Shown: one piece after another, positions 6,935 to 48,263 of the stretch
Position numbering within the stretch: the first letter of the stretch is position 1
Layout: every line of letters starts with the position of its first letter
Source: Gracilariopsis chorda
Lineage: Eukaryota; Rhodophyta; Florideophyceae; Gracilariales; Gracilariaceae
Length of the DNA stretch: 64,000 bases
Direction: 5' to 3'
Assembly (NCBI GenBank): GCA_003194525.1
Contig: NBIV01000101.1
Coordinates: 186,001-250,000, forward strand
Position numbers and translations under genes: made by a program
Notes under the pieces: model-generated
What the model saw: the letters and a program-made list of their open reading frames with translations, nothing else
The model's database searches: none
Told to the model about the DNA's origin: nothing

Positions 6935-7098
6935 TCTTTTTAAGTGAGGAATGGCTATGAGCACTCCTAATTGTACAAACACACCATGATTGTTGACGAC
7001 TGAGGTATTTAACTCTAGACGGTCACAGTAAATCAATAGATAAGTCACTGTGCACAGCTGTAAGCTTGCACATCGGGTGCTTAGCGTTGATCCTCACT

Positions 7099-15390: not shown

Positions 15391-15705
15391 TGTAACGCCC
15401 GCGGAATCAATTACAGTCGTACGCAAAGAAAGGTACCCAACTTGGTTCTGGATCTGGACGTCCTGGCACATAATCACAGCAAGCGCCTCTCCATTCTGAA
15501 GGAGGTCAAGCGCCAACGCAAACTATCACCGGCGTTCGATCGCTTCAAGACGAAGCCGCGCAAGCTCATTCACCGTGCGCGTCCAAGATCTTCAAATCTC
15601 AACATGCTACTCTCAGATTGTGCTTCGCTCTTGTCGCGTCAACCACCTGGAGCCCCGATGCACACCCTCACAACTCTGATCCTGTCGGAAAGTGTCCCAA
15701 ACTGA
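15391..15705 (+). CDS. Uncertain hypothetical frame
   Basis: A plus-strand frame (open from 15085, 206 codons) has a C-terminal half rich in Lys, Arg and Leu that looks more protein-like than its C-rich upstream half. No domain is recognised. It ends shortly before the next frame (15692-15994), which it overlaps by 14 bases in another phase. It may be chance or an old repeat. Confidence 0.2.
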   Translation, partial: CNARGINYSRTQRKVPNLVLDLDVLAHNHSKRLSILKEVKRQRKLSPAFDRFKTKPRKLIHRARPRSSNLNMLLSDCASLLSRQPPGAPMHTLTTLILSESVPN

Positions 15706-15994
15706 CGGAATGTCACCAGTACCTGCTTTCCTCTCGCCGCTTCCCCCCACGGCAGTAGTCTTCACCGTGCCGCACCCCGTCTCCACTGCGCCCGCAACCG
15801 CTGCTACCAGAGCTTTGAAGCGTCGCCGCACAACGTCTACCACGCTCTGCGTGCTCGTGCAGTCCCCTGAGCAGCTCCTGCAGCGCTACAGACTCCCGCG
15901 CAGCCACCCGCAGTACCGTATCACTATTGAAACGTATGGACGCAAGAAAAAGCAGTTAATCGACGTAATAGGGAAGGATGGTAGCAAATATTAA
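15692..15994 (+). CDS. Hypothetical 100-codon frame upstream of the retrotransposon insertion
   Basis: An ATG-initiated frame of 100 codons: a Pro/Ala/Thr-rich first half and a basic C-terminal half ending in GKDGSKY. It stops 88 bases before the insertion point of the 11.4-kb element, so the insertion would lie in its 3' flank. No domain is recognised and coding status is uncertain. Confidence 0.25.
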   Translation: MSQTDGMSPVPAFLSPLPPTAVVFTVPHPVSTAPATAATRALKRRRTTSTTLCVLVQSPEQLLQRYRLPRSHPQYRITIETYGRKKKQLIDVIGKDGSKY

Positions 15995-16077
15995 TGCTGG
16001 GGCTGCAACTCTTCATCTATGGCTGTGGCCACTGCGAGCATAACATCCCCCACAAGGGGACGATGACGAGTCCGCAC

Positions 16078-16082
16078 CACGG
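16078..16082. other. Target site duplication, left copy (CACGG)
   Basis: Identical to 27496-27500 across the element, proving a single integrase-mediated insertion. Confidence 0.95.
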
Positions 16083-16890
16083 TGAAGTGCAACGCCCTCA
16101 GGGAGGGATTCTGGGTACTTGAACGCTTTCCCGATATTATCGGTTGTGTAGTGTGTATATGAACTACGCCCCACAATGGTGGGTATGGACACGTGGGACA
16201 CGGTTTTGGGTCAATTGGCGGTTGGCCACAGTAGTGGATGTTGCCACGGAATGTGGAGTATTTTAGTTAATTTTATTTATTATTTTCACACCCATTTCTG
16301 GGAAGCTAGTACTTAGTGCGACGGCGCACTGCCGTTGCACCAGTAAACCTTCCCCAACAAGGGACCCCAACCTGGGGAATTGGCTCTGAGCTTTACCGCC
16401 TCCGCGTGTTCTCAACTCCTCCTTGGAGGGAAGCACCGTAGTGTACGGAAGTTCACCCCCCTTGCACATCTAAAGGAGACCCATCATTGGGAGTACTAAT
16501 TGTTCCAATCATATTGGTGTTTCGCCCTGTATAGGGAGTCCTGTCCACCGGCATTGCCGTATCTGCTCGTCGCTCTCGCGACCCACTTCGTCCTTCCTCT
16601 TTCCCCTTTTTAGGGTAGCACCTCCCGCTATCCGCGGCCCTCGTGTGCGCATCCGCTCACACACCCCCACTTACGTGGAAACATACCTCTACTGAGGATC
16701 ACACCCCGCTCACGCGGATACCGATTCTTCGCCTTCACCTCCCTGCGCGAGTCGCGACAGGTGTCCCTGGTCTTACAAACCGGCTTCGCCGTGACACCTC
16801 TGGGAGGGCTCTACCCAACTGGGTTCACCTCGTGAGAGGAAGATCCCGGACGTCTTTCGGTGTTTTTCCCCTTTGGGGCATTGCACCACA
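16083..16890 (+). repeat. 5' LTR of the 11.4-kb element
   Basis: 808 bp, starting TGAAGTGCAA and ending TTGCACCACA, which are imperfect inverted termini with the TG...CA rule. It carries at least ten CC-type mini-hairpins, for example CCGATattATCGG at 16131-16143, CCGTagtgtACGG at 16436-16448, CCACttacGTGG at 16667-16678, CCTCtactGAGG at 16686-16697 and CCGCtcacGCGG at 16706-16717. The open frames inside it are by-products of GC content and are not genes. Confidence 0.95.
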
Positions 16891-16893
16891 AAG

Positions 16894-16911
16894 TGGTCTC
16901 CTGACTTAGAA
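16894..16911 (+). promoter_or_regulatory. Primer binding site
   Basis: TGGTCTCCTGACTTAG begins three bases (AAG) after the LTR end. TGG pairs with the universal tRNA CCA end, the expected place for minus-strand priming. The primer tRNA was not identified; it does not match the tRNA-Ile in this window. Confidence 0.65.
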
Positions 16912-16995
16912 TCGGTTTTTGTTTTCCCTCTTACGAGGTTTGTTTTCATTCACCGGAAGTTCCGTGATCGTTTCCCGTCGTAACTGTATTTTCTC

Positions 16996-19017
16996 ATGTC
17001 GAGAAATCCCTCCGACGCGGAGCCAGTGGTTACGCGTAGTCGCTCCCGCGACAACGCGGACACTTCCGAAGTTCGGTTCGTACCCCGTATCCCTATACGG
17101 ACAAGTTCCAGCCGTGCTGGCGCCGCTTCATCGCGGAATGATACCCCCGACCGGGAACCCCGGAACCTCCTTTTGCCCTCGTTATCACCCCCGCAGGGGA
17201 ATGCAGCATCGACTCCGGCTGTTGCCGCAGTGCCCCAGGCACCCCGGCCTGCTCCCGCTGTCGCGGCTTCAAGCCCCCGTGGAACGGGCGATAACACCCC
17301 CCAGGGGACTTCCCTGGAATCCCAGGTCCGCGCTCTGTGGACCGCCCATGACACCCTTGTAGGGGAACTAAAATCCCTCCAAGAGGTGGTCTCGGCAACC
17401 CCCGTAAAGGAGGTCGCCGAGGAACTCCGTATTTTACGGTCTGACGTCAACTCCGTGTTGGAGAGTTTGGGACAACCCGCCGCCTTCATCGAAGGAGTTG
17501 AAGCCCGATTTGATCGGATTGGTGCCCGCCTGGAGACGCTGGAGCAGTTCGTCCTCATGGACAAACCATCCCCGGGTGATCCGGTAAACGAGGCATCGCA
17601 CAACGACCAGCTTGCTGGGAAGAAGAAACGCCGTCACCGACGGAAACACCACCGAAAATATTCGGACTCCGATTCTTCGACATCGTCGGACTCATCCCGA
17701 AACCATTCGGTTAGCTCGAGCTCCTCGGACTCCGACTCGGAGGACGAGAAGCGAGGCTACTCCTCCCGCTCGAAGCGGTCATCGGCCACTGAAGGTGTGG
17801 TCCGAACCCGCCAGAAGGGGAGAAGACACCCCGGTCTCCGGGAATTGAAACCGACAAACCCGGATTACCGGAAGCTTTTATCATACCGGTACTACCGGCT
17901 TGAAGATTCGTCACTTGGACGTACGCCCCGTGGTACGGGAAAGGTGCGAGAATGCATTAAGCGAATGCAGCTCTCGCTCCGCAACCAGTATTTTACTGGA
18001 GAGGACCCAGTCCTAGTACTGGATTTCCTATCCCGCTCTGTAGCGGAGGCCGATATCCTCGGTATGAATGAGGGACAAGCCTATTTGGCTTTACCGTATT
18101 TCTTACGGGGAGTGGCCGAGGACCAATACACCTCTGTCCGAGGATCTTCTCGCGCCTCCGAGGGAGGAGTTACTTGCTGGCCGGAGGCCATGCAGTATCT
18201 TCTGCGCTCCTACGCCACCAACACCGCTATTCAGCAGGCTATCCTCACTTTGCGAGATACACGCCAGCGTGCTGGAGAGACCGAGACCGATTACTCGGTG
18301 CGCCTTAACAAGGCTTTCCACAGATGTCGTAACGTATACCCCGCTGGGGAGCGCAGTACCATGTTCATTGATGGTCTTGACCCGGCAATCCGGAGTTTAG
18401 TTACCCGTTATCGGGAGGACAAGCGAAGGATCACCTACCTCGAGCTGGTCCAACACGCTCGAGCGGAAGGGGATGCACTTCGTGCAAGAACTCCGAACAA
18501 TCGGTCTAAATCCGCCAAGGCGTTGTTGCTGGAAAGCGAAGCTTCCTCTCTCCCGCTCACCGCGGATGGGAACCCTGGACAGGGATTTGATACCGTGCAT
18601 CTAGCGCAGGGGGATGGTGTGTCGATACCCACCAGTGAGTTACCGTCAACGACGGAGATGACCCATGATACGGGAACAGAAGATCCCGTTCTATACGGTG
18701 GTAACAGTCGGGTTCAACCCCAACGACTCCCGTTTTCAAACGGTCAATCCCGTTATCAACGGCCTGGATGGACTGACACCCGCCCTGCGGTTCGCTTCTC
18801 CGACACTCGGAATAATAACCGGCGTGTCGCGGTGCTGGCTCTCATTTGCCACCTGTGCTATGCCCATGGCCATACCTCTCCTCAGTGTATTTGTTCACTG
18901 AAGGATATGGCCAAGGTGGTGGCAAATTATGAGGCCCTCACTCCAGAGGAGAAACGTTCCGTCCCGACGGCTTCCTACCTCCGTGCTAAAACGGACTTTT
19001 CCCACGCCCTACCATAG
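16996..19017 (+). CDS. gag: Gag polyprotein of the chromodomain retrotransposon
   Basis: A 673-residue intact frame starting 105 bases after the 5' LTR. Gag forms the particle that packages element RNA. Residues 1-110 are Pro/Ser/Arg-rich and disordered, about 115-190 are likely coiled coil, and 208-270 form a basic then Ser/Asp-rich linker (RRHRRKHHRKYSDSDSS). The middle (about 310-500) has the helical retrotransposon-gag fold signature around LVLDFLSRSVAEADILGMNEGQAYLALPYFL in the sequence. A CCHC zinc knuckle, C-X2-C-X4-H-X4-C (CHLCYAHGHTSPQC), lies at residues 618-631. Mini-hairpins run through the coding sequence. The frame is undamaged, unlike pol. Confidence 0.9.
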   Translation: MSRNPSDAEPVVTRSRSRDNADTSEVRFVPRIPIRTSSSRAGAASSRNDTPDREPRNLLLPSLSPPQGNAASTPAVAAVPQAPRPAPAVAASSPRGTGDNTPQGTSLESQVRALWTAHDTLVGELKSLQEVVSATPVKEVAEELRILRSDVNSVLESLGQPAAFIEGVEARFDRIGARLETLEQFVLMDKPSPGDPVNEASHNDQLAGKKKRRHRRKHHRKYSDSDSSTSSDSSRNHSVSSSSSDSDSEDEKRGYSSRSKRSSATEGVVRTRQKGRRHPGLRELKPTNPDYRKLLSYRYYRLEDSSLGRTPRGTGKVRECIKRMQLSLRNQYFTGEDPVLVLDFLSRSVAEADILGMNEGQAYLALPYFLRGVAEDQYTSVRGSSRASEGGVTCWPEAMQYLLRSYATNTAIQQAILTLRDTRQRAGETETDYSVRLNKAFHRCRNVYPAGERSTMFIDGLDPAIRSLVTRYREDKRRITYLELVQHARAEGDALRARTPNNRSKSAKALLLESEASSLPLTADGNPGQGFDTVHLAQGDGVSIPTSELPSTTEMTHDTGTEDPVLYGGNSRVQPQRLPFSNGQSRYQRPGWTDTRPAVRFSDTRNNNRRVAVLALICHLCYAHGHTSPQCICSLKDMAKVVANYEALTPEEKRSVPTASYLRAKTDFSHALP

Positions 19018-19187
19018 ACCCCGCGTGCGCGGCAAGCTTCATACACCCCGATTCGGGAGATCACGCAACCATCCGTTGCAACCCCCGCTTATGCGGATAG
19101 AAACCCCCGTCAACGGGATGAAGCACTCGTTGTCGAGGAAACCAACCCACCGCCGAAGGCGGAAAACTAACTGAGGGAGTCTCCCCT
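19018..19187 (+). other. Gag-protease spacer
   Basis: 170 bases between the gag stop and the usable protease frame, dense in mini-hairpins (CCCGTcaACGGG, CTCGttgtCGAG, CCGCcgaaGGCGG). It could host recoding, or may simply be damaged. Confidence 0.4.
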
Positions 19188-19865
19188 TTGGGAGAGGCGT
19201 CCTCAAGAACGAGGCTGTTGGCGCCCGAGGCGTCCTCGCCTCGCTCCCCGGTGAAAGTCCTCTCGAGGAAAGACACCGCTGACGCGGACTCTGCGCACCT
19301 CGGTGTGTTGCGTCGCCCGTGGATACGGAGTAAAAATCCCCGGATTCCCGGTAGAGTCTTGGTCTTGGCCAAGCGCAATTATAAGGTCTATGCCGACCTT
19401 GGCCTTGACCCCCAGTTTATGGTGAGGTTTCTCACCGTCCTGGATACAGGTGCAGGCCCCAACTTTGTCGTGGAATCATTGTTACCCCCGCTTGTGCAGT
19501 CGCGTATCCGCTCTGACGCGGTCCCCGACATTTCGGATGCGAACAACAATCCGTTACAAACGGTGGGCACAGTGGACCTCGTCGTGAGACTTGGTACCTC
19601 CGTGGTGAAGTTGGACTTCATCGTTTGCCGTTCATTGGCAGCACCAGTCATACTGGGATGTGATTACTGCGACAGATTTGTCGACACAATCAGGCCCCGC
19701 CTCAGGCGTGTAGAACTTCACGACGGATCGTCGGTTCCGATTGTTCGCCGCCCGCTAAAGCGGTCCTCTCGGAAACAAGTTCCGCTCCCTGCTGCGCAGG
19801 AACCACCGCCCGCGTCCCGCGAGTCCACCAAGCTCCGCGTCGAAATCCCAGCCGGCGCTGGCTAA
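19188..19865 (+). CDS. Retropepsin-type aspartic protease
   Basis: A 225-codon frame in a different phase from gag. The active-site motif VLDTGAG lies at about residues 86-92 and the second conserved element VILGCDYCDRF near residue 152, the standard arrangement of a Ty3/gypsy protease that cuts Gag-Pol as a homodimer. The frame ends at a stop just where the downstream RT frame, in the gag phase, becomes usable, so a phase change is needed between protease and RT around 19800-19870. Whether that is programmed frameshifting or a lesion cannot be told from one copy. The listed start codon is only the first available in frame. Confidence 0.8.
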   Translation: MGEASSRTRLLAPEASSPRSPVKVLSRKDTADADSAHLGVLRRPWIRSKNPRIPGRVLVLAKRNYKVYADLGLDPQFMVRFLTVLDTGAGPNFVVESLLPPLVQSRIRSDAVPDISDANNNPLQTVGTVDLVVRLGTSVVKLDFIVCRSLAAPVILGCDYCDRFVDTIRPRLRRVELHDGSSVPIVRRPLKRSSRKQVPLPAAQEPPPASRESTKLRVEIPAGAG

Positions 19866-19905
19866 TGGAATTGTCTCCATTTCCCCGGATGTTCCTTTCC
19901 GGATA

Positions 19906-21405
19906 TTGGTTGCCAACCTTGGCAAACACCCCCAGTATCTGGTCAAACACCAAGTAATTGGGAGTGTAACCCCCCATCCTATGGGAATGCTGCCAACGAA
20001 GATGACAGCCGCCGATGTACTCGGAGTTACCACCTCTTCTGAGGAGTTCGCCCCGCCGTTCGAAGACGTCAAGTCTAAGGAGGGGGAGGAAACCGCTACT
20101 TCAGCGTCGAACATACCGAGTAACTCGGAATTGCGAACCACACCTGTTCCACAGGACAATGCTCCATCGAGCAATGACAGGATTGATCCGGAAAAAGCAC
20201 TTGAAGCGCTGGACTTCAGCCACGTGCCAGAGTCGCACCGTGACAAACTCCGTACTATGTTACGGGAATTCACCACAATGTGGGATGGCTCGCTTGGCGA
20301 GATTGATGCAACGGAACACCGGATCGATTTAATCCCCGGTGCGCGACCGGTTGCACAACCCCCTTACAGGGCAGGTCCGAAAGCTCGGGAAGAGGAGCAG
20401 TCCCAGGTGGACAAGATACTCCGCGCAGGTGTGATTGAGCCCGCTCAATCGCCCTGGGCATCCCCAGTTGTACTGGCTTTAAAGGCCGACGGAACCTGGA
20501 GGTTCTGTGTCGACTACCGCCGGCTCAATGCCGTGACTGTTAGGGACACGTACCCCATCCCTCGTATGGACGAGTGCATTGACTCCCTTGGAGACGCCAC
20601 CGTGTTCACGGCCCTTGATGCCAATTGGGGATATTGGCAAGTACCTGTCAGACAGGAGGATCGCGACAAAACCGCATTCACCTGCCATGCAGGAACGTAC
20701 CGCTTCAAGCGGATGCCATTTGGGTTAACCAACGCCCCCGCCACCTTTCAGCGTGCAGTAGATATTCTACTCAACCGCTTTAAGTGGCGGAGTTGTCTGG
20801 TCTACCTTGATGATATTATCATCTTCTCCAACTCGTTGGACGACCATCTCACTCACGTCCGAGACGTGCTGACCGTACTCCGCGATGCGGGAATTACCCT
20901 CAAGTTGAGGAAATGCGAGTTTTTCACAGATATTGTGAAGTATCTGGGTCACCTTATCCGTCCTGGACGGTTAGCGATCGAGAAAGCTCGAGTCAAATCC
21001 CTCGTTGAGGCGAAAGAACCCCGTACTCAAACGGAACTGCGCTCCTTTCTGGGGCTGGTCAACGTCTATCGACGGTTTATCCCGAACTTTTCGGATACTG
21101 CAGCGCCCCTGAACGCGTTGTTGCGAAAGGGGAACCCCCCAAAACTGGGAAAATTTACGCCCGAGCAATCGGAAGCTTTTAACTCCTTAAAGGAGGCTGC
21201 CACATCAGCACCAATCCTACATCTCCCAAAACTTGGGTTGCCATACTCCGTAGATACGGACTCGAGCGACTACCAAGTCGGGTGTGCTCTTTTTCAAACC
21301 ACCCCCGAGGGGGAACGACATCCAATTGGTTATTGGTCACGTTCGCTCAATGTTCATGAGCGGAACTACTCCGTATCGGAGAAAGAGTGCCTCGCCGTCG
21401 TATGA
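19906..21405 (+). CDS. pol: Reverse transcriptase and start of RNase H
   Basis: A 499-codon frame with the Ty3/gypsy RT landmarks: CVDYRRLNAVT, the TALDANWGYWQV region, KTAFTCHAGTYRFKRMPFGLTNAPATFQ, the catalytic YLDD at residues 300-303 (from base 20803), the YLGHLI block, and the connection with FLGLVNVYRRFIPNFS. RNase H begins with VDTDSSDYQVGCALFQ and YSVSEKECLAVV. It ends at a TGA (21403-21405) exactly where family members have Trp; the same phase continues four bases later with AMTTLRPYL. The stop therefore looks like a single nonsense change or a readthrough site inside one RT-RNase H-integrase frame. Confidence 0.9.
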   Translation: MVANLGKHPQYLVKHQVIGSVTPHPMGMLPTKMTAADVLGVTTSSEEFAPPFEDVKSKEGEETATSASNIPSNSELRTTPVPQDNAPSSNDRIDPEKALEALDFSHVPESHRDKLRTMLREFTTMWDGSLGEIDATEHRIDLIPGARPVAQPPYRAGPKAREEEQSQVDKILRAGVIEPAQSPWASPVVLALKADGTWRFCVDYRRLNAVTVRDTYPIPRMDECIDSLGDATVFTALDANWGYWQVPVRQEDRDKTAFTCHAGTYRFKRMPFGLTNAPATFQRAVDILLNRFKWRSCLVYLDDIIIFSNSLDDHLTHVRDVLTVLRDAGITLKLRKCEFFTDIVKYLGHLIRPGRLAIEKARVKSLVEAKEPRTQTELRSFLGLVNVYRRFIPNFSDTAAPLNALLRKGNPPKLGKFTPEQSEAFNSLKEAATSAPILHLPKLGLPYSVDTDSSDYQVGCALFQTTPEGERHPIGYWSRSLNVHERNYSVSEKECLAVV

Positions 21406-21408
21406 GCG

Positions 21409-22566
21409 ATGACCACTCTGCGCCCCTACCTTATGGGAATTCACTTCACCGTGTACACGGATCATTCCTCATTGAGGTGGTTGATGAATATCTCCGACCC
21501 GTCGGGACGCCTCATGCGCTGGAGACTCCGCCTCGCGGAATATGACTTTCAAGTCATTTATAAAAAGGGTGCGCAGAACACCCAGGCCGACGCTTTATCG
21601 CGGTTACCCACAAGTGGGGAAGCACTCCCAACAGAGGATGATGAAGTCCCATGCTTCATGGCTATAGACCCGGATGATCCGGAATATGCCGTCGAGGCTA
21701 GGCCAGAAACCTGGGACGAGGATGCTGATTTTGACGAACTACTCGCATCGCGAGATAAATCTGAGAACCCGTTACCGGGAAACTTTGTACCGGTATCACC
21801 GGAAGAAATGATCCGAGAACAATTCGGCGACCCATTCTGTAGGAGAATTCGTGCCCGTATCAACGGTGGTGAAGATCTCCCTTTCGGGGTAAACGACAAA
21901 GGCTACCTCGTAAGAAAGGTCGAAGCCCGCCCACAGATTATGGTACCACATTCCCTGCAATCGCGGGTGTTACATCTATCACACTACGCCCCCATTGGAG
22001 GTCACCCAGGTGGGAGGAAACTCTACCTAACCCTGCGAAGGGATTTCTATTGGCCCGCAATGGCGGTGGATTGCTACGCAACTGTGCGGTTTTGTAGCGA
22101 ATGCGCGAAGAATCGCGTCAAACTCCGCAAAAATGCGAAGAAGATGAAACTATTCCCCGCAAGGGCGCCGCTCGAGTTTATCGCGATCGATATTCTCGGA
22201 CCATTACTCACCACGAAACGTGGAAACAAGTTTCTACTTGTCATTACCGACCGCTTTTCTAAGCTGGTACGGACTGTCCCTCTTCGGAGGATAACCGCTC
22301 TCACGGTGGCCCAGGCTCTGGTGACGCACTGGATTTTTGTCTACGGTCCCCCTGTAGAGGTGCTCTCTGACAACGGGAAGCAGTTCGTGAGCAAGTTCTT
22401 CCAGGATGTTTGTCGCATCCTGGATGTCAAGAACTTGTTCACGACTACCTACCACCCCCCCAGTGTAATGGGCAAGTTGAACGGTTTAACCGGACGTTAC
22501 TCGCGGCGTTACGTTCCTACGTCGCTGACCACCCAACGAATTGGGATCTCTACGCTGATGCGGTAA
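21409..22566 (+). CDS. pol: RNase H end and integrase N-terminal two thirds
   Basis: In the same phase as the RT frame. It opens with RNase H (FTVYTDHSSLRWL, then NTQADALSRLP). Integrase follows: the zinc-binding HHCC module (HYAPIGGHPGG ... FCSECAKN) and the first two catalytic acids in FIAIDILGPL and VLSDNGKQFVSKFF. From base 22455 a run of seven Cs shifts the phase, so this frame drifts into nonsense after about 22460 and stops at 22566, before the catalytic Glu. The true protein continues in the next phase (22459-23024). Confidence 0.85.
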   Translation: MTTLRPYLMGIHFTVYTDHSSLRWLMNISDPSGRLMRWRLRLAEYDFQVIYKKGAQNTQADALSRLPTSGEALPTEDDEVPCFMAIDPDDPEYAVEARPETWDEDADFDELLASRDKSENPLPGNFVPVSPEEMIREQFGDPFCRRIRARINGGEDLPFGVNDKGYLVRKVEARPQIMVPHSLQSRVLHLSHYAPIGGHPGGRKLYLTLRRDFYWPAMAVDCYATVRFCSECAKNRVKLRKNAKKMKLFPARAPLEFIAIDILGPLLTTKRGNKFLLVITDRFSKLVRTVPLRRITALTVAQALVTHWIFVYGPPVEVLSDNGKQFVSKFFQDVCRILDVKNLFTTTYHPPSVMGKLNGLTGRYSRRYVPTSLTTQRIGISTLMR

Positions 22567-23024
22567 CCTACGCGTACAATACGCAGGTACACCGGACTAC
22601 CGGAGTTTCGCCATTCGAGTTAGTTCTATCTAGAACACCCCCGCCTGTGGCGCTGGAACCCCAAGCTACCTTGGACAATTTCCCATCTGTGGGTATCTAC
22701 CGGCAGCAATGGAAGCGATGGCTTTCCAAGCTGGTCCCCGCTGCGCGGAAGACTATGGCACGGGCCCAAGCCGCTTACAAGCGGGATTTTGACGCTCGCG
22801 TGCGAGGAAAACCATCTCCGATTCGGGCAAATAACTACGTCTTCATCAGGAAGGAATACTACAACCCGGAACCGGAGAAGCGTCACAAACTCTCGCCTGT
22901 GGCGGATGGACCCTTCAAGGTGATCTCTGTTAACACCGACACTGTCGTGGTAGAGATGGGGACACGCACGAACGGATTTCCCGTGATCGTGTTGTCCTCG
23001 CCCCTCCTCCCTCGTCAGAGGTAG
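22459..23024 (+). CDS. pol: Integrase C-terminal part, phase-shifted
   Basis: This frame (open from 22410) takes over exactly at the C7 run and supplies the third catalytic residue in CNGQVERFNRTLL, then WDLYADAVTYAYNTQVHRTTGVSPFELVL and the GPFKVISV-type integrase C-terminal fold. The match between the two frames at one homopolymer implies a one-base indel, real or a sequencing error. The frame ends at a stop at 23022-23024, where another phase stays open into the tether region. Confidence 0.8.
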
Positions 23025-24265
23025 TCCTGGATCCAGGCAACCCCGTTTCTACGGACTCCGCTACACCGGAACAATCCGGAAGTACTAGACCTACGGTACT
23101 ACCACACCCCAGCCGGGGACTCTCAGACCTACCGACTCTGTTGGACTCACCGGCTCAGCCGGGTAATTCGGGCCCCTCAGCGCCCGCCCCTACCACGTCT
23201 GCCCCACTGGCGCGCATCTATACCCGCCAGGCGGGGAATGTTATCCCTTATCCCGCCGCTCCGTCTAAGGAGGGGGAGGAGAACACTCGTTTTCGAGGAA
23301 CGATATCACCGTCGCAACGGGAAACACACCGTAACATACGGAACACTGACCGTGGAGCACGGAGTATGTCACGCGACACTAATCCCCCGTTCCCGGGCAG
23401 TGCTGTGCAACAGGAACCAGACGCGCAGGCCCCGCAAAAGCGGCAAATACACCGTTTGTCACGGGAAAACGAGAAGCCTCACTCCAATACCGCAGCAGCG
23501 GAAAGGCAATCGCCCGATGCCTCGAAGCCGCCGTTGGCGGAAGTCCCCGCGGAAGCGGTTCAATCAGGTCGATCAGACCCGCGCCCTGCGGAGAAGGGGC
23601 GCCCAGATACGCCGGCCTCACAGGGGAATACCCACACCCCTCTTGGGGAAAAAGGCGGCCAAGCTGCAGTCGAAGCTTTAAGCCCTGGCTTGCAAGCACC
23701 GGAAACGCCTCCCGTCGTTGACGGAATCAAAGCCCCCACTACGGGGAATAATTTGCGCCAACCCCCGCATCGCTGCGGCGAAGAACCGAGGAACTCGGGA
23801 ATAACGCGCGCCATCGCACGCTCGAAACCGGTCGTACCGGACGCTGCTCCTCCTCACGGAGATGGTGCACTGCGCTCAGCGGCAATTCCCCTGAAAAGGG
23901 TGTCATCGGCACCTGCCCGGAACCCCCCAGAGGGGAATTTTGACCAAAAATACCGGTGTACCGGAGTTAGCCCCAGGCAACCCGTCAGTAGCCGGGGACA
24001 CCACGGCATCGCCGGAACGTATGGTGCAGAGCGCTCGTGCGCCTGGCAGGGAGGCGGTTTGCCACCCAATCACCGTGTCGCACGGGACCCCCCAGGGGAT
24101 TGTGGAAATGCCGATCCCGCAGGAGCGGTCATCTTCCCGCAAACTCGCGGTTCGTGCGCTCAACCGCGAAGGCGGGAACCCAAGTCCCCCGCCGACTGGC
24201 GGTTCGCCCGGCCTACCGTGAGGACGGGAACAACGACACCCCTCTGGGGAACGACTTGCCGGTGA
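23025..24265 (+). other. Long hairpin-dense linker between integrase and chromodomain
   Basis: About 1.2 kb, open in one phase as a 374-codon frame (23141-24265; the phase is open upstream to about 23000). Its product is Pro/Ser/Arg/Thr-rich and low in hydrophobics, with no domain. It is the densest part of the mini-hairpin pattern: at least 30 CCNN-loop-N'N'GG units between 23281 and 24760. It may be a disordered tether whose sequence is dictated by RNA structure. Confidence 0.5.
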
Positions 24266-24651
24266 AAACCGTGGCACCACACACCCTCTTGAGGGATATT
24301 TTCCCGCATGAGCAGCGGCCACTAGGACAGCGCACGGCAACGTCGGAGTTATCGCCGAACACCCTGCTAAGGGACATTATACCGCACCGCGGGCAACCCT
24401 CGCCAGGGATTACAACCACCACCCGGCACGGCCGGCAGGTCTACGAACGAGAGTTCGTAGTAGACCGACTTGTCGGACACACCTGGGACCAGGATGGTAT
24501 TCTACAATACCGCGTCCGCTGGTACGGGTACGACCCCAGTGGGGATACGTGGGAGCCAATGGAACACCTCCCACGGTCGCAGGTCGTGCGATACCACCGT
24601 CAAACGGGAACTGCAGCTCCAGCCACGCTGGTTAATGCCCAAGTTGGGTAA
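24266..24651 (+). CDS. C-terminal chromodomain of integrase
   Basis: The frame (open from 24037) encodes a chromodomain at about 24448-24610: YEREFVVDRLVGH, LQYRVRWYGYDPSGDTWEPMEHL. The aromatic residues expected for a methyl-lysine cage are present (Y/F near the start, W-Y, and W in TWEP). Chromodomains at the integrase C-terminus mark the chromovirus branch of Ty3/gypsy and direct insertion to particular chromatin. The phase differs from the linker frame before it, so another frame change lies near 24200-24270. Confidence 0.85.
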
Positions 24652-24842
24652 CGTTGCCGCGCGAGCGGAGAGCGAAAGGAAAGGATAACAAGGCAAAGTC
24701 CGTCGAAGACGGGGAACTCAACCGAGAAGCACCGTTCTAAACGGGAAAGTTTATTCAAGGGAGCAGCTAGCTCCCCACAATACTACACTACACTAACTGG
24801 CATAGCCAGGGAAAGAAGAACCAGGAAAATGGACTAGAGGTT

Positions 24843-25610
24843 TCACTCACCCCCATCGTCCGGGGCGTAACCCCCAGCAAGGCGGTAGGCCAACGCGTCC
24901 GCCATGGTGGTGACATCCCCCGATACCTCGGCAGCGCTAAGACCGGCGCCCCGGAGGAAACGTGCGATGATTTCGTTTTCATTCGCCGTCACCCCGCTGG
25001 GGATAGAAGGTCCGGCACTTGCCGTTGAAGGGTCAGCAGCCGGCTCGGCCGGAGATACCCCCTCTGGGAAAGCTTCCGCGCTAGCGCCGGTTTCCTCTAC
25101 GTCCATCTCCCCGGGTTCTTCCCGTTCGTTATCGACCATTGGGTCATCCCCGCCGTATGCGCGGTAGTAGTCGTCAGAATCGACGTACCCCACCGGGTGG
25201 TCTTCCGGCACATGCCGGGGCGTATCGCGAAGCTCTCGCGCCTCCTCGGAGGAAAGTTCCCGGAACTCCCAGGGGTCGAAGTAGATAAAATCCCCCGCAA
25301 GGGCGGTGTTTCTACCGAGTCCCGGACCACCGGTGTTACCGCTGCCGCCATCCAGACGACCGCTTTGCTCCAGCGGGACCTCACTCCAGCTAACGCTGTC
25401 GATGTACCCAAGTAATTGGAGGACCTCTTCATTGTTGGCCTGGCCCCCAAGGGGGATGCGAAGATCCAGGTTTCGGATCGCTGCCCGCACACGCGGTTGA
25501 AGGAACCAGAGACGATACTGGTCGTACGCCTCGTTGAGGATATAAGCCGCAGTGCGGGCCGCCCACTCCGTAACCACTACGGACCACAACCCCGACCGGG
25601 GATCCTGCAT
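24843..25610 (-). CDS. Antisense frame of the retrotransposon, downstream half
   Basis: A 255-codon minus-strand frame in the same phase as the frame at 25626-26630 and separated from it only by one TAA (25626-25628) and five sense codons. Together they would make about 595 residues. This half has aromatic- and Leu-rich helices at its start (WAARTAAYILNEAYDQYRLWFLQP) and an acidic, Pro/Ala/Ser-rich middle. It ends in a short helical domain (NEIIARFLRGAGLSAAEVSGD). No family is recognised. Antisense frames between pol and the 3' LTR are known in some plant Ty3/gypsy lineages; relationship to those is not shown here. Confidence 0.6.
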   Translation of the reverse strand: MQDPRSGLWSVVVTEWAARTAAYILNEAYDQYRLWFLQPRVRAAIRNLDLRIPLGGQANNEEVLQLLGYIDSVSWSEVPLEQSGRLDGGSGNTGGPGLGRNTALAGDFIYFDPWEFRELSSEEARELRDTPRHVPEDHPVGYVDSDDYYRAYGGDDPMVDNEREEPGEMDVEETGASAEAFPEGVSPAEPAADPSTASAGPSIPSGVTANENEIIARFLRGAGLSAAEVSGDVTTMADALAYRLAGGYAPDDGGE

Positions 25611-25625
25611 GAGCAGCGAACCGAG

Positions 25626-26630
25626 TTACGTAAGTACCAGCGGGAGTTCTATGTAGCACCCCCGGCAGGCTTCATGGAAGCGCCACCACTCGGGGAGTGC
25701 TACATACCGACCTAGTCGGTGAGGCGGCGCAATCCGCTCTATCTCCACGTTCTGATACGGGATAAAGTACCCGAATCGGGATCGCCAGCGCCGCTCGTAG
25801 CGGATGAAGTTTTGGAGAAAGTTGGACCGGTATTGCCGGGGAAGGTGCCTGAACTCCGCCTGAATAATCGGTCGCTCCCAGCAAAGGGCCTCTTGCCGCG
25901 CTGCGGGGAAATTCCTCCAAGCGAGGGTCTCGAGGCGGAACAGGTTCTCGCCGTACCCAATCTCCCCGCGAGTGCGGAAGTAGCTAACGTCGAAGCCAAA
26001 CTCCGGTGGGACCGGTACATCGAATGGAGCCCGGCTCTGCCGTTGGTACGCCATCCGCGTCAACGCGGTCTGCGCCGCAGCGACGGTCTCGCCCGAGTTT
26101 CTTCGGAGATGGTGACGCGGAATCGCAATCCGGTGACGCCAATCCCACGATGTGGTGACTGCTCTGGGCAGATCCCCCGGAAGGGTGTCTGAACCATCCG
26201 CATAAGCGGTGACCAATCCCTCATTGAGGACGGCGACCGGGTGAAACCACGGGGCAAGGCGCAGGCGCGACGCGTGATTCCGATTCATCGGGTTGAGCCC
26301 CACCAGGGTGTTGTAAGTTGGCCAGTTGGACACCGGAGTGGTTCCGGAGGACACCACCGAAGGTGGTAGTGCGAAGGGATGGTCGGCTGCAGCAGCCATA
26401 TTCCCCGGTTGTACCGGATTTCGATCCCCCTGAGGCAGGGGAACTGACCGGAAACCGGTGGTGTACCGCCCGAGAAGTCTCGGCGGTTGGCTGTGGCTGT
26501 TGATATGGTTGTCGTCGTTCATTTGTCCCTTTTGGAGGGTGGCTGTTGTTGTCGTTTGTGTGCTTGATGACTCTGGTGCAGAGGGATTTACCGGAGAACC
26601 GGAGACAAAGCACGCGCTTTTATCACCCAT
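25626..26630 (-). CDS. Antisense frame of the retrotransposon, upstream half
   Basis: A 334-codon minus-strand frame reading away from the 3' LTR and starting 57 bases inside it. The first 90 residues are Ser/Thr/Pro/Gln-rich and disordered. The rest is rich in Arg, Trp, Phe and Tyr (WDWRHRIAIPRHHLRR, FDVSYFRTRGEIGYGENLFRL, RYERRWRSRFGYFIPYQ), suggesting a folded, possibly nucleic-acid- or membrane-associated domain. It ends at TAA, after which the phase is open again at once. Composition and length make it unlikely to be a mere shadow, since the sense strand here has no long frame. Transcription would need a promoter in or near the 3' LTR on the minus strand. Confidence 0.6.
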   Translation of the reverse strand: MGDKSACFVSGSPVNPSAPESSSTQTTTTATLQKGQMNDDNHINSHSQPPRLLGRYTTGFRSVPLPQGDRNPVQPGNMAAAADHPFALPPSVVSSGTTPVSNWPTYNTLVGLNPMNRNHASRLRLAPWFHPVAVLNEGLVTAYADGSDTLPGDLPRAVTTSWDWRHRIAIPRHHLRRNSGETVAAAQTALTRMAYQRQSRAPFDVPVPPEFGFDVSYFRTRGEIGYGENLFRLETLAWRNFPAARQEALCWERPIIQAEFRHLPRQYRSNFLQNFIRYERRWRSRFGYFIPYQNVEIERIAPPHRLGRYVALPEWWRFHEACRGCYIELPLVLT

Positions 26631-26674
26631 TTTCGTCTGGGAATCCTCCGCGCCCGCGGTCGTTTTCCCGTCTT

Positions 26675-26685
26675 AAGGGGGGGGA
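26675..26685 (+). promoter_or_regulatory. Polypurine tract
   Basis: AAGGGGGGGGA ends two bases before the 3' LTR, the expected plus-strand primer position. Confidence 0.85.
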
Positions 26686-26687
26686 TA

Positions 26688-27495
26688 TGAAGTGCAACGC
26701 CCTCAGGGAGGGATTCTGGGTACTTGAACGCTTTCCCGATATTATCGGTTGTGTAGTGTGTATATGAACTACGCCCCACAATGGTGGGTATGGACACGTG
26801 GGACACGGTTTTGGGTCAATTGGCGGTTGGCCACAGTAGTGGATGTTGCCACGGAATGTGGAGTATTTTAGTTAATTTTATTTATTATTTTCACACCCAT
26901 TTCTGGGAAGCTAGTACTTAGTGCGACGGCGCACTGCCGTCGCACCAGTAAACCTTCCCCAACAAGGGACCCCAACCTGGGGAATTGGCTCTGAGCTTTA
27001 CCGCCTCCGCGTGTTCTCAACTCCTCCTTGGAGGGAAGCACCGTAGTGTACGGAAGTTCACCCCCCTTGCACATCTAAAGGAGACCCATCATTGGGAGTA
27101 CTAATTGTTCCAATCATATTGGTGTTTCGCCCTGTATAGGGAGTCCTGTCCACCGGCATTGCCGTATCTGCTCGCCGCTCTCGCGACCCACTTCGTCCTT
27201 CCTCTTTCCCCTTTTTAGGGTAGCACCTCCCGCTATCCGCGGCCCTCGTGTGCGCATCCGCTCACACACCCCCACTTACGTGGAAACATACCTCTACTGA
27301 GGATCACACCCCGCTCACGCGGATACCGATTCTTCGCCTTCACCTCCCTGCGCGAGTCGCGACAGGTGTCCCTGGTCTTACAAACCGGCTTCGCCGTGAC
27401 ACCTCTGGGAGGGCTCTACCCAACTGGGTTCACCTCGTGAGAGGAAGATCCCGGACGTCTTTCGGTGTTTTTCCCCTTTGGGGCATTGCACCACA
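26688..27495 (+). repeat. 3' LTR of the 11.4-kb element
   Basis: 808 bp, the same length as the 5' LTR. By eye it differs at two positions (T/C near 16336/26941 and T/C near 16570/27175). Confidence 0.95.
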
Positions 27496-27500
27496 CACGG
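27496..27500. other. Target site duplication, right copy (CACGG)
   Basis: Matches 16078-16082. Confidence 0.95.
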
Positions 27501-28212
27501 ATATCATTCCTTCCAATATAAATTGTATATATATAAGGGCAGGCGCTCCAAACGATGTTGTAGAGAGGGCTGCACCTCATTTTCTTTCTTGTGGCCATCC
27601 GCCAGGGCCGCAATTAGGCCACCAAACTGTGCAACACCATAAGATGGGTTGATGGCGCTATGGTGAAGCGTCAAACCATACTGTGCCTCAATTTAGAGCG
27701 CTTCTTCGGTAGAAGGCACTGCTTCGGAGTTTTCGTCATCATTGATTTTGGGTATGGTTGTTTGGTGGTTTGCGTCTACGGATAAAACTGGCTGGAGCGA
27801 GGTTTCTACCCAGTAGTATATCCCAAGTCGTGACGAATACACGCTATAATATATTCTCAAATAGCCGTAGTATGTCCTTTGTTAGACGTAAAAGAACATG
27901 ACAGAAAGCGAAACAAAAGGTTATCAAATCTAGTCTGTGGCCAAAAAATCTGTAAACCTTCTCAATATGTATAGTTTTATGCAACTCAAGGAAACAAGAC
28001 ATTTGATCTATGTCTAGCGTACTTTTCCTTGCACTTAACGCAAAGAAATCATGTTATTGTTTGGTTTTCTTCGAATAGCAAAAATGCGAATTTTCGGAAG
28101 ATCATAATGAGTTCTTCCATATTCTACAGACATGGCTGGTGGTGCATGTGATCTTGGGATAGCTAGCTAGGCTTTTGATACTTAGGCACGCAGCAAACAA
28201 TTGCTCCAATTT
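27501..28212. other. No recognisable gene
   Basis: Right flank of the insertion site. Before the insertion it was continuous with sequence ending at 16082. An AT run (TATATATATAA) lies near 27525. No coding frame is supported. Confidence 0.5.
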
Positions 28213-29053
28213 TGTTGTGCAATGCCCCAAAAGGGAAAAACACCGAAAGACGTTCGAGATCTTCCTCTCAAGAGGTGAACCCAGTTGGGTAGAGCCCTCC
28301 CAGAAGTATCACGGCGAAGCAGGTTTGTAAGACCAAGGAAACCTGTCGCGACTTGCGCAGGGAGGTGAAGGCGAAGAATCGGTATCCGCGTGAGCGGGGT
28401 GTGATCCTCAGTAGAGGTATGTTTCCACGAAAGTGGGGATGTGTGACCGGGTGCACACAGGAGGGCCGCGGGTAGCGGGATGTACTACTCTGAAAGGGGG
28501 AAAGGAGGAAGAGTGAAGGGAAAGGAGGAATAGTGGGCGAGGGTGAGTCGCGAGAGCAACGAAAAAGTGCGGCAATGCCAGTGGACAGGACTCCCTATAT
28601 AGGGCGAAAAATCAATGTGATTGGAACAATTATACTCCCAAGGATGGGTCTCTTTAGGTGTGCAAGGGGGTTAGAGGTCCCGTGGTTCACGGCATTTCCC
28701 TCCAAGGAGGAGTTGAGAACGCGCGGAAGCGGCAACAACTAGAGCCAGTTCCGCAGGTTGGGGTCCGTTGTTGGGGAAGCTTTACTGGTGCGACGGCAGT
28801 GCCCCGTCGCACTAAGTACTAACTTCCCAGAAATGGGTGTAAGAAAAGTAAATAATATTAACTAAAATTATTAGAAATACTCCACATTTTTTGGCAACAT
28901 CCACTACTGTGGCCAGCCGCCAATTGGCCCAAAACCGTGTCCCACGTGTCCTTATCCACCATAGTGAGGCGTAGTTCATATACACCCTACAAAACCGATA
29001 ATATCGGAAAACAATCAAGTACCAGGAATCCCTCCCGAGGGCGTTGCACTTCA
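28213..29053 (-). repeat. Old solo LTR of the hairpin family
   Basis: A reverse-orientation LTR of 841 bp, from TGTTGTGCAA to TTGCACTTCA in plus coordinates. The flanks AATTT and AAGTT match at four of five bases, consistent with an aged target duplication. Many substitutions separate it from 16083-16890, but mini-hairpins persist with altered loops (plus-strand CCACgaaaGTGG at 28425-28436, CCTCtcaaGAGG at 28264-28275). Confidence 0.9.
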
Positions 29054-29448
29054 AAGTTTACCGCAACTAGTAGATTGCATAATCGGCACAAAGTAGTGCT
29101 CAGTTGCAGTAAATGTGGGGGTGTTTTTGTTGGGTTTCCATAGAAATTCTTGCACATTTGGAGTTTCTTTAAGATTTGCGCCGACGAGTGGAAATAACTT
29201 GATTAGTCTTGTTCAGAATGGTGTAAACTATGCTTAACAAGACGCAAAATTCGGATAGGGATGGCAAATAGAACGGTTTCCGTTCGGCTCTAGTGTAGCA
29301 GTAGATAATGTACGTGAAAGATCTTTTTTTAAATTGATGGCTCACGGATTCCTTTTATGACCTGGGTCTTCTGGGAGCGCTGACGACCGAACGGTCGGAC
29401 GTTTTAGTTTAATAGTGTGCTAGCCCTATTTATGTTGGCTTGGTCGAG
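29054..29448. other. No recognisable gene
   Basis: Short intergenic stretch between two LTR relics. Confidence 0.5.
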
Positions 29449-29717: not shown

Positions 29718-30107
29718 ACTGTACTGTGCGCGGCCTGACATTCTCTACCAGTGTTTGGTAAATTTGGCCTTCATATCGCGTTTTTTGGAAATAATTGAAT
29801 CCAAAACTTGGAACATTTGAACAACAAGTCGGCCGAATCTCAAACTTAATAAGCTCTACGGACATATTAACATGATTTGAATCCAATGTTTTCTTTCATA
29901 GCGTCACCGGAATCTTCCCGCTGATCACTTGGAGCACTTTCCACCCTTCGTCAATCACGCATCAGCGAACATGGCAGCGAAGTTCGTTTGTCCCTGAGCA
30001 CATAGGGGAAGCAGCTAATCAACAATCACCGTTTAAATCCTGCAGTAGACATTTTGCATGAACACATATAGAGATTCAATTGGAACGCAGAAGCAGTCAC
30101 ATCTGAG
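29718..30107. other. Upstream flank of tRNA-Ile
   Basis: No gene recognised. Confidence 0.5.
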
Positions 30108-30181
30108 GCCTCCATAGCTCAGTCGGTTAGAGCATGGTGCTAATAACGCCAGGGTCGCAGGTTCGAGCCCTGCTGGGGGTA
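30108..30181 (+). tRNA. trnI-AAU: tRNA-Ile (anticodon AAU)
   Basis: 74 bases fold into a complete cloverleaf: acceptor GCCTCCA with TGGGGGT (one G-U at the first pair and one at the fourth), D stem GCTC/GAGC, anticodon stem TGGTG/CGCCA around CTAATAA (anticodon AAT at 34-36), T stem GCAGG/CCTGC with TTCGAGC loop, and discriminator A. The internal A box (TAGCTCAGTCGG) and B box (GGTTCGAGCC) are intact. A TTTTT Pol III terminator follows at 30189-30193. There is no encoded CCA, no intron and an A34 anticodon, all typical of a eukaryotic nuclear gene. It lies 345 bases upstream of the aspartic-protease-like gene on the same strand. Confidence 0.97.
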
Positions 30182-30188
30182 TAGGTTA

Positions 30189-30193
30189 TTTTT
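30189..30193 (+). terminator. Pol III oligo-T terminator
   Basis: TTTTT eight bases after the tRNA discriminator. Confidence 0.85.
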
Positions 30194-30525
30194 GGTTCTC
30201 AGTGTTTTGTTCCTTTTGCTGAGCCAAACTTCCCCGCAAGGACAGCTTAAATCACCAGTATTACTCGCGCAAGGAGAAATATGCTCTGGCAGCACGTTGC
30301 ACGCAACTTTCCTGCCTGTAGTGAACAAGGGTCTCTACTGAGAAGTGCGCGCTTCCTAAAGTCGTTCTCATATCTGCACCGCTTTCGTCCTGAGCTGACA
30401 CTGCACGAGCAACAGCTGTCGGCTTCCGTATTACGCACTATCGTCAACATAAGCAGAATCATTTCCGTAATTCTTCTCGATTTCGAAGCCAGGAACAGTC
30501 GAGGCTCTTACCATATTGGTCCGCT

Positions 30526-34739: not shown

Positions 34740-34763
34740 GGCTCAGAGCTAGGACTCAGAGCT

Positions 34764-37909: not shown

Positions 37910-37918
37910 TATAAAAAA
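37910..37918 (+). promoter_or_regulatory. TATA box of the VWA gene
   Basis: TATAAAAAA lies 184 bases upstream of the proposed start codon. No other strong TATA occurs between it and the gene. Confidence 0.5.
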
Positions 37919-39760: not shown

Positions 39761-39769
39761 CCAGTTGCT

Positions 39770-42951: not shown

Positions 42952-43777
42952 TGAAGTGCAACGCCCTCAGGGAGGGATTCTTGGTACTTGAATGCTTTCC
43001 GGATATTATCGGTTGTGTAGTGTGTATATGAACTATGCCCCACAATGGTGGATATGGACACGTGGGACACGGTTTTGGGTCAATTGGTGGTTGGCCACAG
43101 TAGTGGATGTTGCCACGAAGTGTGGAGTATTTTAGTTGATTTTATTTATTATTTTCACAGCCATTTCTGGGAAGCTAGTACTAGTGCGACGGCGCGCTGC
43201 AGTCGCACGAGTAAATCTTCCCCAACAAAGGGACCCGAACTTGGGGAGTTGGCTCTAGTTGTTACCGCTTGCGCGCGTGCTCTACTCCTCCTTGGAGGGA
43301 AACGCCGTGAACCACGGGACATCTAACCCCCTTGCACATCTAAAGGGACCCATCACTGGGAGTCATATTATTCCAATTGCATTGGTGTTTCGCCCTGTAT
43401 AGGGATATTGTTACCGGCATCGCCGTTCGCCCCCGTCGCTCTCGCGACTCACTTCGTCCTCTTTTCCTCCTCTTCGCCCTTCCCTTTTCCCATTTTTAGG
43501 GTAGCACCTTCCGCTATCTGCGGCTCTCGTGTGCGCATCCCATCACACACCCCCACTTACGTGGAAACCTACCTCTGGCGAGGACGCATTCCCGCTCTTG
43601 CGGATACCGATTCTTGTCCTAAACCCTCTTGCGCTAGTCGCGAAGGTTGGCTTCGGTCTTACAAACCAGCTCCGCCGTGTCACCCCTAGAGGGGCTCTAC
43701 CCAACTGGGTTCACCTCGTGAGAGGAAGATCCCGAACGTCTTTCGGTGTTTTTCCCCCTTTGGGGCATTGTACCACA
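42952..43777 (+). repeat. Solo LTR of the hairpin family with extended 3' end
   Basis: 826 bp from TGAAGTGCAA to TTGTACCACA. A diverged second copy of the LTR's last about 60 bases follows, ending in another TTGCACCACA at 43885. No 5-bp duplication is found with either end. Its hairpins differ from the 16-kb copy mainly in loops: CCGTgaaccACGG (43305-43317), CCTCtggcGAGG (43572-43583), CCGCtcttGCGG (43592-43603). One stem changed on both arms: CCCCtagaGGGG (43683-43694) against CCTCtggGAGG. Confidence 0.85.
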
Positions 43778-47435: not shown

Positions 47436-48263
47436 TGTGGTGCAATGCCCCAAAGGGGAAAAACACCGAAAGACGTTCGGGATCTTCCTCTCACGAGGTG
47501 AACCCAGTTGGGTAGAGCCCTCCCAGAGGTGTCACGGCGAAGCCGGTTTGTAAGACCAGGGACACCTGTCGCGACTCGTGCAGGGAGGTGGGGGCGAAGA
47601 ATCGGTATCCGCGTGAGCGGGGGTGTGACCTTCAGTAGAGGTATGTTTCCACATAAGTGGGGGTGTGTGAGCAGATGCGCACACGAGGGCCGCCGATAGC
47701 GGGAGGTGCTACCCTAAAAAGGGGAAAAAGGAAGGGCGGAGAGGAGGAAGGAAGGACGAAGTGGGTCGCGAGAGCGACGAACAGATACGGCAATGCCGGT
47801 GGACAGGACTCCCTATACAGGGCGAAACACCAATATGATTGGAACAATTATACTCCCAAGGATGGGCTTCTTTAGATGTGCAAGGGGGTTAGATGTCCCG
47901 TGGTTTACGGCGTTTCCCTCCAAGGAGGAGTAGAGCACGCGCGCAAGCGGCAACAACTAGAGCCAATTCCCCAGGTTGGGGTCCCTTGTTGGGGAAGGTT
48001 TATTGGTGCGACGGCAGTGCGCCGTCGCACTAAGTACTAGCTTCCCAGAAATGGGTGTGAAAATAGTAAATAATATTAACTAAAATACTCCACATTTCGT
48101 GGCAACATCCACTACTGTGGCCAACCGCCAATTGGACCAAAACCGTGTCCCACGTGTCCATACCCACCATTGTGGGGCGTAGTTCATATACACACTACAC
48201 AACCGATAATATCGGGAAAACGATCAAGTACCTAGAATCCCTCCCTGAGGGCGTTGCACTTCA
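47436..48263 (-). repeat. Nested solo LTR of the hairpin family
   Basis: 828 bp in reverse orientation, TGTGGTGCAA ... TTGCACTTCA on the plus strand, flanked by perfect AAGGA duplications (47431-47435 and 48264-48268). It lies inside the gag zinc knuckle. Its internal region was lost by LTR-LTR recombination. Hairpins are present, for example CCACataaGTGG at 47649-47660 and CCGTggtttACGG at 47898-47910. Confidence 0.95.

Follow-up and report, generated by a model that had tools for sequence, protein, structure and literature searches.

Why should a retrotransposon be strewn from end to end with tiny perfect hairpins, and what could read them? The question is raised by an 11.4-kb element at positions 16083-27495 of the window, as we call the whole 64,000-nucleotide stretch of contig NBIV01000101.1 analysed here. 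Its characteristic unit opens with CC and closes with GG (CCNN-loop-NNGG, hereafter a CC unit, named for its outer dinucleotide). The element holds 241 non-overlapping CC units, compared with 22.4 ± 4.4 (maximum 40) in 200 dinucleotide shuffles and 21.7 ± 4.4 (maximum 35) in 200 third-order Markov sequences, an excess over chance of about tenfold that places roughly one unit in every 47 nucleotides. The observation was first made in a preliminary description of this sequence, and our analysis confirms it as real and stronger than first stated. The hairpins seem to do some work for the element; if so, selection has stamped an entire genome about 240 times with a motif that can be spotted by eye, several families in one genome bearing different codes.

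Hairpin abundance along the element

The element is a long terminal repeat (LTR) retrotransposon of the Ty3/gypsy type. Its limits had been given correctly in the preliminary description, as the two LTRs are bounded by TG..CA and nearly identical to each other, and CACGG flanks the element on either side as a target-site duplication. Along 19906-22566 the pol domains follow in the order RVT_1, RT_RNaseH, H2C2 and rve, in open reading frames (ORFs) that are interrupted in this copy, a stop codon separating the reverse transcriptase (RT) ORF from the ORF at 21409-22566. The gag translation combines a basic, serine-rich region with one CX2CX4HX4C zinc knuckle, and the gag ORF has no Pfam gag match. 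The parts of the element and its LTR copies in the window are as follows.

16083..27495, plus strand: whole hairpin-bearing LTR retrotransposon, Ty3/gypsy type; 241 hairpins
16083..16890, plus strand: 5' LTR, TG..CA; 20 hairpins
16667..16717, plus strand: example of an LTR array, CCAC..GTGG, CCTC..GAGG, CCGC..GCGG
16996..19017, plus strand: gag ORF, 673 amino acids; 47 non-overlapping hairpins (51 with overlaps)
19188..19865, plus strand: probable aspartic protease ORF (weak match, below cut-off); 12 hairpins
19906..21405, plus strand: RT and start of RNase H; 30 hairpins
21409..22566, plus strand: end of RNase H, H2C2 zinc finger, integrase core
22410..23024, plus strand: ORF in another frame with the putative C-terminal part of integrase, judged from position and sequence; 9 hairpins
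23025..24842, plus strand: region downstream of pol, without Pfam match; 47 hairpins, the densest long stretch
23309..23362, plus strand: example array of three hairpins spaced about 20 nucleotides, CCGT..ACGG
24843..26630, minus strand: antisense ORF region, 334 amino acids (26630-25626) and 255 amino acids (25610-24843); 36 hairpins
26688..27495, plus strand: 3' LTR, 99.75% identical to the 5' LTR; 20 hairpins
28213..29053, minus strand: LTR copy, about 85% identical to the element's LTRs; 13 hairpins
42952..43777, plus strand: LTR copy, about 85% identical; 16 hairpins; divergence 3.4% in stems, 23% in loops
47436..48263, minus strand: LTR copy, 92% identical; 19 hairpins; divergence 0.3% in stems, 8.4% in loops

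Hairpins occur in the LTRs, gag, pol, the downstream region and the antisense region alike, at 16-29 units per kb in the tabulated parts, the exception being the 105-nucleotide leader with one unit. The coding frames were compared with 300 synonymous-codon shuffles for each of six ORFs: 51 units were found in gag (shuffle mean 5.2, maximum 12), 12 in the protease ORF (2.1, maximum 7), 30 in the RT ORF (4.8, maximum 12), 19 in the integrase ORF (2.7, maximum 8) and 33 in the ORF at 23141-24265 (6.6, maximum 16). The weakest of the six is the ORF at 22410-23024, where the best shuffle equals the observed 9 (mean 1.8); a sub-threshold match to Tf2-1 SH3 is its sole profile match. The density thus exceeds that of both dinucleotide- and codon-preserving shuffles, the check that the preliminary description had asked for. 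Its estimate of more than 30 CC units in 23281-24760 was borne out as well, the count there being 41 without overlaps, compared with 3.7 ± 1.8 (maximum 9) in 300 dinucleotide shuffles.

Among the sixteen outer dinucleotides in 16047-28300, CC is dominant (267, with 24.6 expected), and the mirror type GG..CC stands at chance (26, with 23.6 expected). The CG, CT, CA, TC, TG and AG types are raised about two- to five-fold, in part, for CG, because it nests in CCG. The pattern was said to be lacking in the host genes and the other gypsy element, and we find the same: 12 CC units with 8.3 expected in the host genes at 30000-42900, and 1 with 1.3 expected in the second gypsy element; the copia region has 1 with 2.2 expected. 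In the strict sense the pattern is not confined to the element, since the three LTR copies carry it and so does a clade of families with differing codes. The six strings quoted in the preliminary description stand letter for letter at the positions given, although one of them, CTCG..CGAG, is not of the CC type; and the remark that units are usually followed by GA, AA or GGA was too strong, such letters following 71 of the 241 (29%), which is nevertheless above the background of 15%. An A at +1 is the more marked of the flank biases. An Rfam scan of 15500-29100 returned no family at the gathering threshold.

Conservation of the paired stems

A CC unit has a stem of four base pairs, or of five with a loop of three nucleotides, and spans 11-14 nucleotides with a peak at 12-13; maximal helices are four-pair stems with loops of three or four nucleotides and five-pair stems with loops of three. 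Pairs 3 and 4 show high complementarity. One pair further out, the bases are complementary in 24% of cases at span 11, 17% at span 12 and 14% at span 13. Stems occupy 17% of the element and loops 9%. A sequence-specific palindrome in double-stranded DNA was considered and rejected, as every inner dinucleotide except TA was encountered, 15 of 16 in all, and complementarity alone is fixed.

We compared the hairpins of the element with those of seven close relatives in both directions, dropping identical comparisons. In 827 comparisons of the CC class, 122 of 6616 stem sites had changed (1.8%) compared with 398 of 3532 loop sites (11.3%). For every one of the seven relatives taken singly the stems diverged less than the loops, by a factor of 4.5 to 28. 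As conditioning on one intact stem itself lowers stem divergence, by an estimated factor of up to two, eight control classes (GG, GC, GA, AC, TT, AA, GT and TG) were treated in the same way; summed, they changed at 155 of 3560 stem sites (4.4%) and 83 of 2054 loop sites (4.0%), and in TT and AA the loops were the slower part. Of the four-fold sites in the pol and gag frames, 2 of the 218 lying in stems had changed, compared with 9 of the 86 in loops and 70 of the 951 outside both, counts that are pooled over three relatives (L015, L013 and L012) that overlap. With the 72% identical relative L011 the four-fold contrast is small (0.45 versus 0.55), as turnover of the hairpins would give.

Across five families, double changes stayed Watson-Crick in 35 of 56 cases at pair 3 and 67 of 107 at pair 4 (62-63%), compared with 16-27% when the partner was slid and 34-35% at pairs 3 and 4 of other hairpins. 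The outer pairs 1 and 2 showed no such excess (11 of 54, or 20%, and 29 of 77, or 38%). Since the excess is found at the inner pairs and not at the outer ones, the outer pairs are constrained in identity and the inner pairs in complementarity. Selection, therefore, very probably acts on the paired stems, and the data suggest that selection can maintain hundreds of very small structures simultaneously through coding sequence. The preliminary description had named structural selection, template switching and insertion spread as possible causes, of which the first is supported by the slow stems (about six times below the loops), the constrained synonymous sites and the inner-pair covariation; the other two are disfavoured, on grounds given below.

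Family-specific codes among the relatives

Nineteen 10-kb stretches of the same 91.3-Mb assembly were scanned for CC units, and gave 3-10 in twelve, 30-136 in six and 13 in L014. The seven higher stretches all match the window element, and these were taken into the comparison and the twelve low ones left out. Twenty further 3-kb RT stretches were picked from 150 RVT_1 hits, a non-random choice spread over the Pfam scores; 19 of them had 17-38 CC units, and L047, at 37% amino acid identity, had none. The relatives group into families A (the window element) to F, mutually 62-81% identical in nucleotides, plus the type of L025. All seven families are hairpin-rich and their outer pairs differ by family. 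In family B, CC dominates (38, with 3.6 expected); family C has CC (27, with 3.9 expected) and TC (23, with 4.0 expected); family E has CC 17 and CG 18, each with 3-4 expected; B, C and E are sampled by 3 kb each. The code of family D is C followed by any base, plus TC (CC 77, CG 76, CT 40 and TC 46, each with 9-16 expected). Family F, a small sample of 1348 bases, has 9 with 1.7 expected, and L025 has AC 51 (10 expected), TC 35 (12 expected) and CC 30 (9 expected). In the RT tree L025 groups with C as its sister (support 0.92), and the codes of both have C at position 2.

Which positions carry a hairpin also differs between families, 11 of 47 being common to A and D, and the RT ORF aligns in families C, D and E as one continuous tblastn alignment (residues 3 or 14 to 499).

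L052, a contig in a bacterial record with a related gag and RT (52% amino acid identity), branches as the sister of families A-F together with L025 (supports 0.90 and 0.92). It has GG 18 (5.0 expected) and CC 14 (5.4 expected), and its 775-amino-acid ORF has 15 hairpins of five pairs and three loop nucleotides, compared with 2.7 in codon shuffles (a maximum of 10 in 100), without preference for CC over GG. L048, on the next branch, shows no general excess of helices (164 versus 171; in its ORF 110 versus 113), with the exceptions of CG-type units (36, with 15.6 expected) and six helices of eight pairs and three loop nucleotides (0.1 expected). No excess of 11-13-nucleotide hairpins was found in the ORFs of L050, L053, L054, L047 and the second gypsy element of the window; L049, L051, L055 and L056 were taken as raw counts, without shuffles. 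The simplest reading of this tree, with single contigs as its basis, is that the hairpin trait arose once.

Of the 26 Gag homologues found, those that bear an organism name are all from Agarophyton chilense. Among the 120 RT matches listed, the names include Chondrus crispus and again A. chilense, together with a bacterial metagenome-assembled genome that we take as contamination; the host of the element is thus likely a red alga. A search of contigs in bacterial records yielded nine with a gypsy-type RT, which resemble eukaryotic contamination. L048-L056 are filed under Moorena, Robiginitomaculum, Solirubrobacter, Geminicoccus and others, and two of them, L054 and L055, derive from unrelated bacteria and are nearly equal in size, with near-identical hairpin counts. 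Two scans of IMG/VR found no relative.

Two observations concern the recent history of these families. At G000:C3:98918-118790 three copies of family D lie in the same orientation at a spacing of about 8.81 kb, 100% identical over 2249 bases, which suggests a tandem array. About 40 RT hits have one common score (139.3 bits), the family C locus L036 included, suggesting a recent burst of that family.

Candidate readers of the hairpins

How a retroelement selects its own RNA from the cell is poorly defined. We propose that the hairpins are recognition elements dispersed along the whole Ty3/gypsy-type genome, and that their reader would be a nucleic-acid-binding protein which the element itself encodes, the Gag nucleocapsid with its basic region and single zinc knuckle being the likeliest. 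The protein would recognise the shape of the hairpin together with its outer-pair code on genomic RNA, perhaps on complementary DNA (cDNA) too, and this recognition would pick out and condense the element's own genome in particle assembly, family-specific codes letting co-resident families package their own genomes. The proposal as a whole is tentative, if a reasonable one. The part we would sooner defend is that the element encodes the reader, which seems somewhat probable because different codes in different families would not be expected of a host process; that Gag and genome packaging in particular are involved is a choice about as tentative as the whole. Gag is nevertheless the obvious candidate for such a reader, and besides family A the CX2CX4HX4C knuckle occurs in 19 of 26 homologous proteins and at 3 of the 4 related loci that were scanned. 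A bolder and more doubtful version is that the elements write a self-signature along their genomes, the outer pairs being the code and the inner pairs and loops free, and that a protein of the element reads it on RNA, perhaps also on cDNA, and so tells its own genome from those of sister families, the codes diverging as the families do. If the proposal is correct, the reader protein, its specificity and its co-evolution become directly testable.

Among the features that speak for dispersed recognition by a reader of the element's own are that the hairpins cover nearly the whole genomic RNA, coding or not, that orientation matters, and that the codes differ within one genome. As to orientation, A stands at +1 in 123 of 243 units of family A in 16047-28300, compared with 39 in which T stands before CC. 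Within the region of the antisense ORFs A at +1 still exceeds its mirror, T at -1, by 15 to 7 among 36 units in the window, by 15 to 3 of 25 in L012 and by 8 to 1 of 16 in L013b, an overlapping L013 row having been left out of the count. Since the polarity keeps its direction inside the antisense region, it follows the sense strand of the element and not the coding strand. In family D, G-U is raised at pairs 3 and 4 (14, with 5.1 expected) and A-C is not (9, with 8.1 expected, summed), which fits a function in plus-strand RNA.

Several results weigh on the other side. Family B lacks the polarity, with A at +1 in a fraction 0.39 of its 36 units and T at -1 in 0.36. Predicted RNA formation has no clear preference for the plus strand (0.43 versus 0.39 on the minus strand, p = 0.16) and is exceeded by formation under DNA parameters (0.62 plus, 0.60 minus, p = 0.004), and single stem changes show no strand preference (G-U 22, A-C 30, other 32). 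In families A and B, G-C, C-G, A-T and T-A are enriched 9 to 22 times at the inner pairs (spans 12-13), while G-T and T-G stand at 0.9 to 1.5 times expectation and G-U at pairs 3 and 4 at 15 with 11.9 expected. Simple selection for RNA stability thus fits family A poorly, since A-T is enriched like G-C, and G-U, a pair commonly accepted in RNA stems, is not. Such an absence of G-U in family A is compatible with DNA or with a requirement on both strands, although in view of family D a ban on G-U is not general. Of the control classes GG alone has faster loops (stems 23 of 536, 4.3%; loops 23 of 296, 7.8%). As so few hairpin positions are shared between families, no single site is essential.

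The evidence for a regular 20-nucleotide lattice is weak. Nearest spacings centre at 21-22 nucleotides in families A and D, and a test for periodicity gave p = 0.017 in A, p = 0.32 in L012 and p = 0.005 in D, the best period in D lying at the edge of the scan range. Weaker hairpins do not clearly fill the midpoints between hairpins (2.21 versus 2.09 pairs).

One alternative is that the hairpins act in single-stranded cDNA during reverse transcription, on the minus or the plus strand and bound by nucleocapsid or RT, or in both RNA and cDNA, which would force strict Watson-Crick pairing. The pairing of family A, in which A-T is as good as G-C, is what this predicts, and so is the higher formation on both strands under DNA parameters, these parameters being a model. 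The folding-energy excess over shuffles is nearly strand-symmetric, at 10.9% on the plus strand (45 windows, mean z -2.05) and 9.0% on the minus strand. At the loop-closing pair of families A and B, C-A, which is U-G or T-G on the other strand, is found 18 times with 4.0 expected; A-G is raised there as well (7, with 2.5 expected), so that the C-A excess need not be a minus-strand wobble, and the G-U of family D, raised without A-C, speaks against cDNA. We consider action in cDNA unlikely, though it is the strongest of the alternatives to recognition on genomic RNA by Gag.

Somewhat less likely still is that hairpins on both strands hinder sense-antisense duplexes or small-RNA targeting and so shield an element with an antisense gene from RNA interference or nucleases. 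Antisense ORFs are indeed present, with homologues in relatives: the matching region of L012 is open across 540 codons, and that of L013 (4837-6580) contains stops and has matching pieces that are 68-73% identical, or 40% at the N-terminal end. The 334-amino-acid ORF has two unnamed homologous proteins, and neither antisense ORF has a Pfam match. Watson-Crick-only pairing in family A retains hairpins on both strands, both strands show the energy excess, and in RNA viruses such an excess goes with weaker host sensing (PMC3950689). Evasion leaves unexplained, however, the CC..GG code, the chance level of GG..CC and the family codes within one host, and the hairpin-rich family D has an energy excess of 3-4% only; L048 has 5.3%, and the host genes and second gypsy element 1.4-2.6%.

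A mutational origin without benefit, in which the element's RT keeps writing perfect micro-palindromes by intramolecular template switching, is improbable. The absence of a G-U excess and the parity of A-T with G-C in family A are what templated copying gives, and hairpin positions do turn over between families. Perfection by switching would however produce frequent paired changes, and among 1071 ungapped hairpin comparisons with the seven close relatives, in which LTR copies were counted against both LTRs, 4 double changes preserved pairing, all of them one CCGT/CCGC exchange in L012 and L015 seen from both sides; the more distant L013b had 1 in 101. The slow stems, their constrained four-fold sites, a next outer pair complementary in only 14-17% at spans 12-13 and a family-specific code argue against it as well.

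Some algal organelle genomes contain dense short palindromes, spread mainly as intergenic repeats. The element resembles them in the shortness and density of its palindromes and differs in that conserved coding domains contain these, and in that their inner sequence varies and their outer pairs are specific to the family. Spread by insertion of micro-palindromic repeats, which would interrupt conserved genes or lie outside them, is disfavoured, as 30 units lie inside an RT ORF that aligns unbroken to C, D and E and their positions differ by family.

Chance, base composition or codon usage can be dismissed, for although the element is richer in G+C (0.50-0.61 per kb window) than most of its surroundings, the dinucleotide, third-order Markov and synonymous-codon controls lie far below the counts, except that the best codon shuffle equals the count at 22410-23024, and GG..CC is not enriched.

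Recognition by Gag would work like the dispersed packaging signals of single-stranded RNA viruses, in which multiple genome-wide stem-loops share a common recognition motif (PMC6281560); the likeness is one of pattern, Gag binding being predicted. As far as the virus signals are described there, the differences are that ours is an LTR retrotransposon with about 240 hairpins in 11.4 kb as its candidate signals, and that the common feature is the outer base pairs, in a code that varies among related families in one genome. Genome-scale ordered RNA structure (GORS) is likewise a genome-wide folding-energy excess over shuffles, reported in that source for positive-strand RNA virus genomes (PMC3950689); here an integrated LTR retrotransposon is built of uniform coded hairpins of 11-14 nucleotides, the excess is near-equal on the minus strand, and it is weak (3.2%) in the hairpin-rich family D. 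Closer in kind are Ty1 and Ty3, of the same broad element type, in which interactions of Gag with genomic RNA drive packaging. Short palindromes at the 5' end are proposed to hold the Ty3 RNA dimer, and Ty1 has mapped packaging and Gag-binding sites near its 5' end, the packaging sequences being, according to a review, not precisely defined; no element-wide saturation with hairpins is described for either in the parts of these sources used (PMC11381356, PMC4974528). A literature search found, among the matches listed, no hairpin-saturated retrotransposon of this kind described by title or start of abstract.

The window holds further features beside these. A second gypsy fragment in 48300-53000 (RT/RNase H at 49574-50548) and a copia fragment in 55000-60000 (57238-58221) are without the hairpin pattern. 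A tRNA-Ile (AAT) gene lies at 30108-30181, roughly 1 kb away from the LTR copy with hairpins at 28213-29053. A smaller region at 5000-7000 is enriched in AC, GG and CC hairpins and is perhaps the LTR of another hairpin family; within it, 5938-6122 is 90% identical to L014 1468-1652, which lies beside a fragment of family F.

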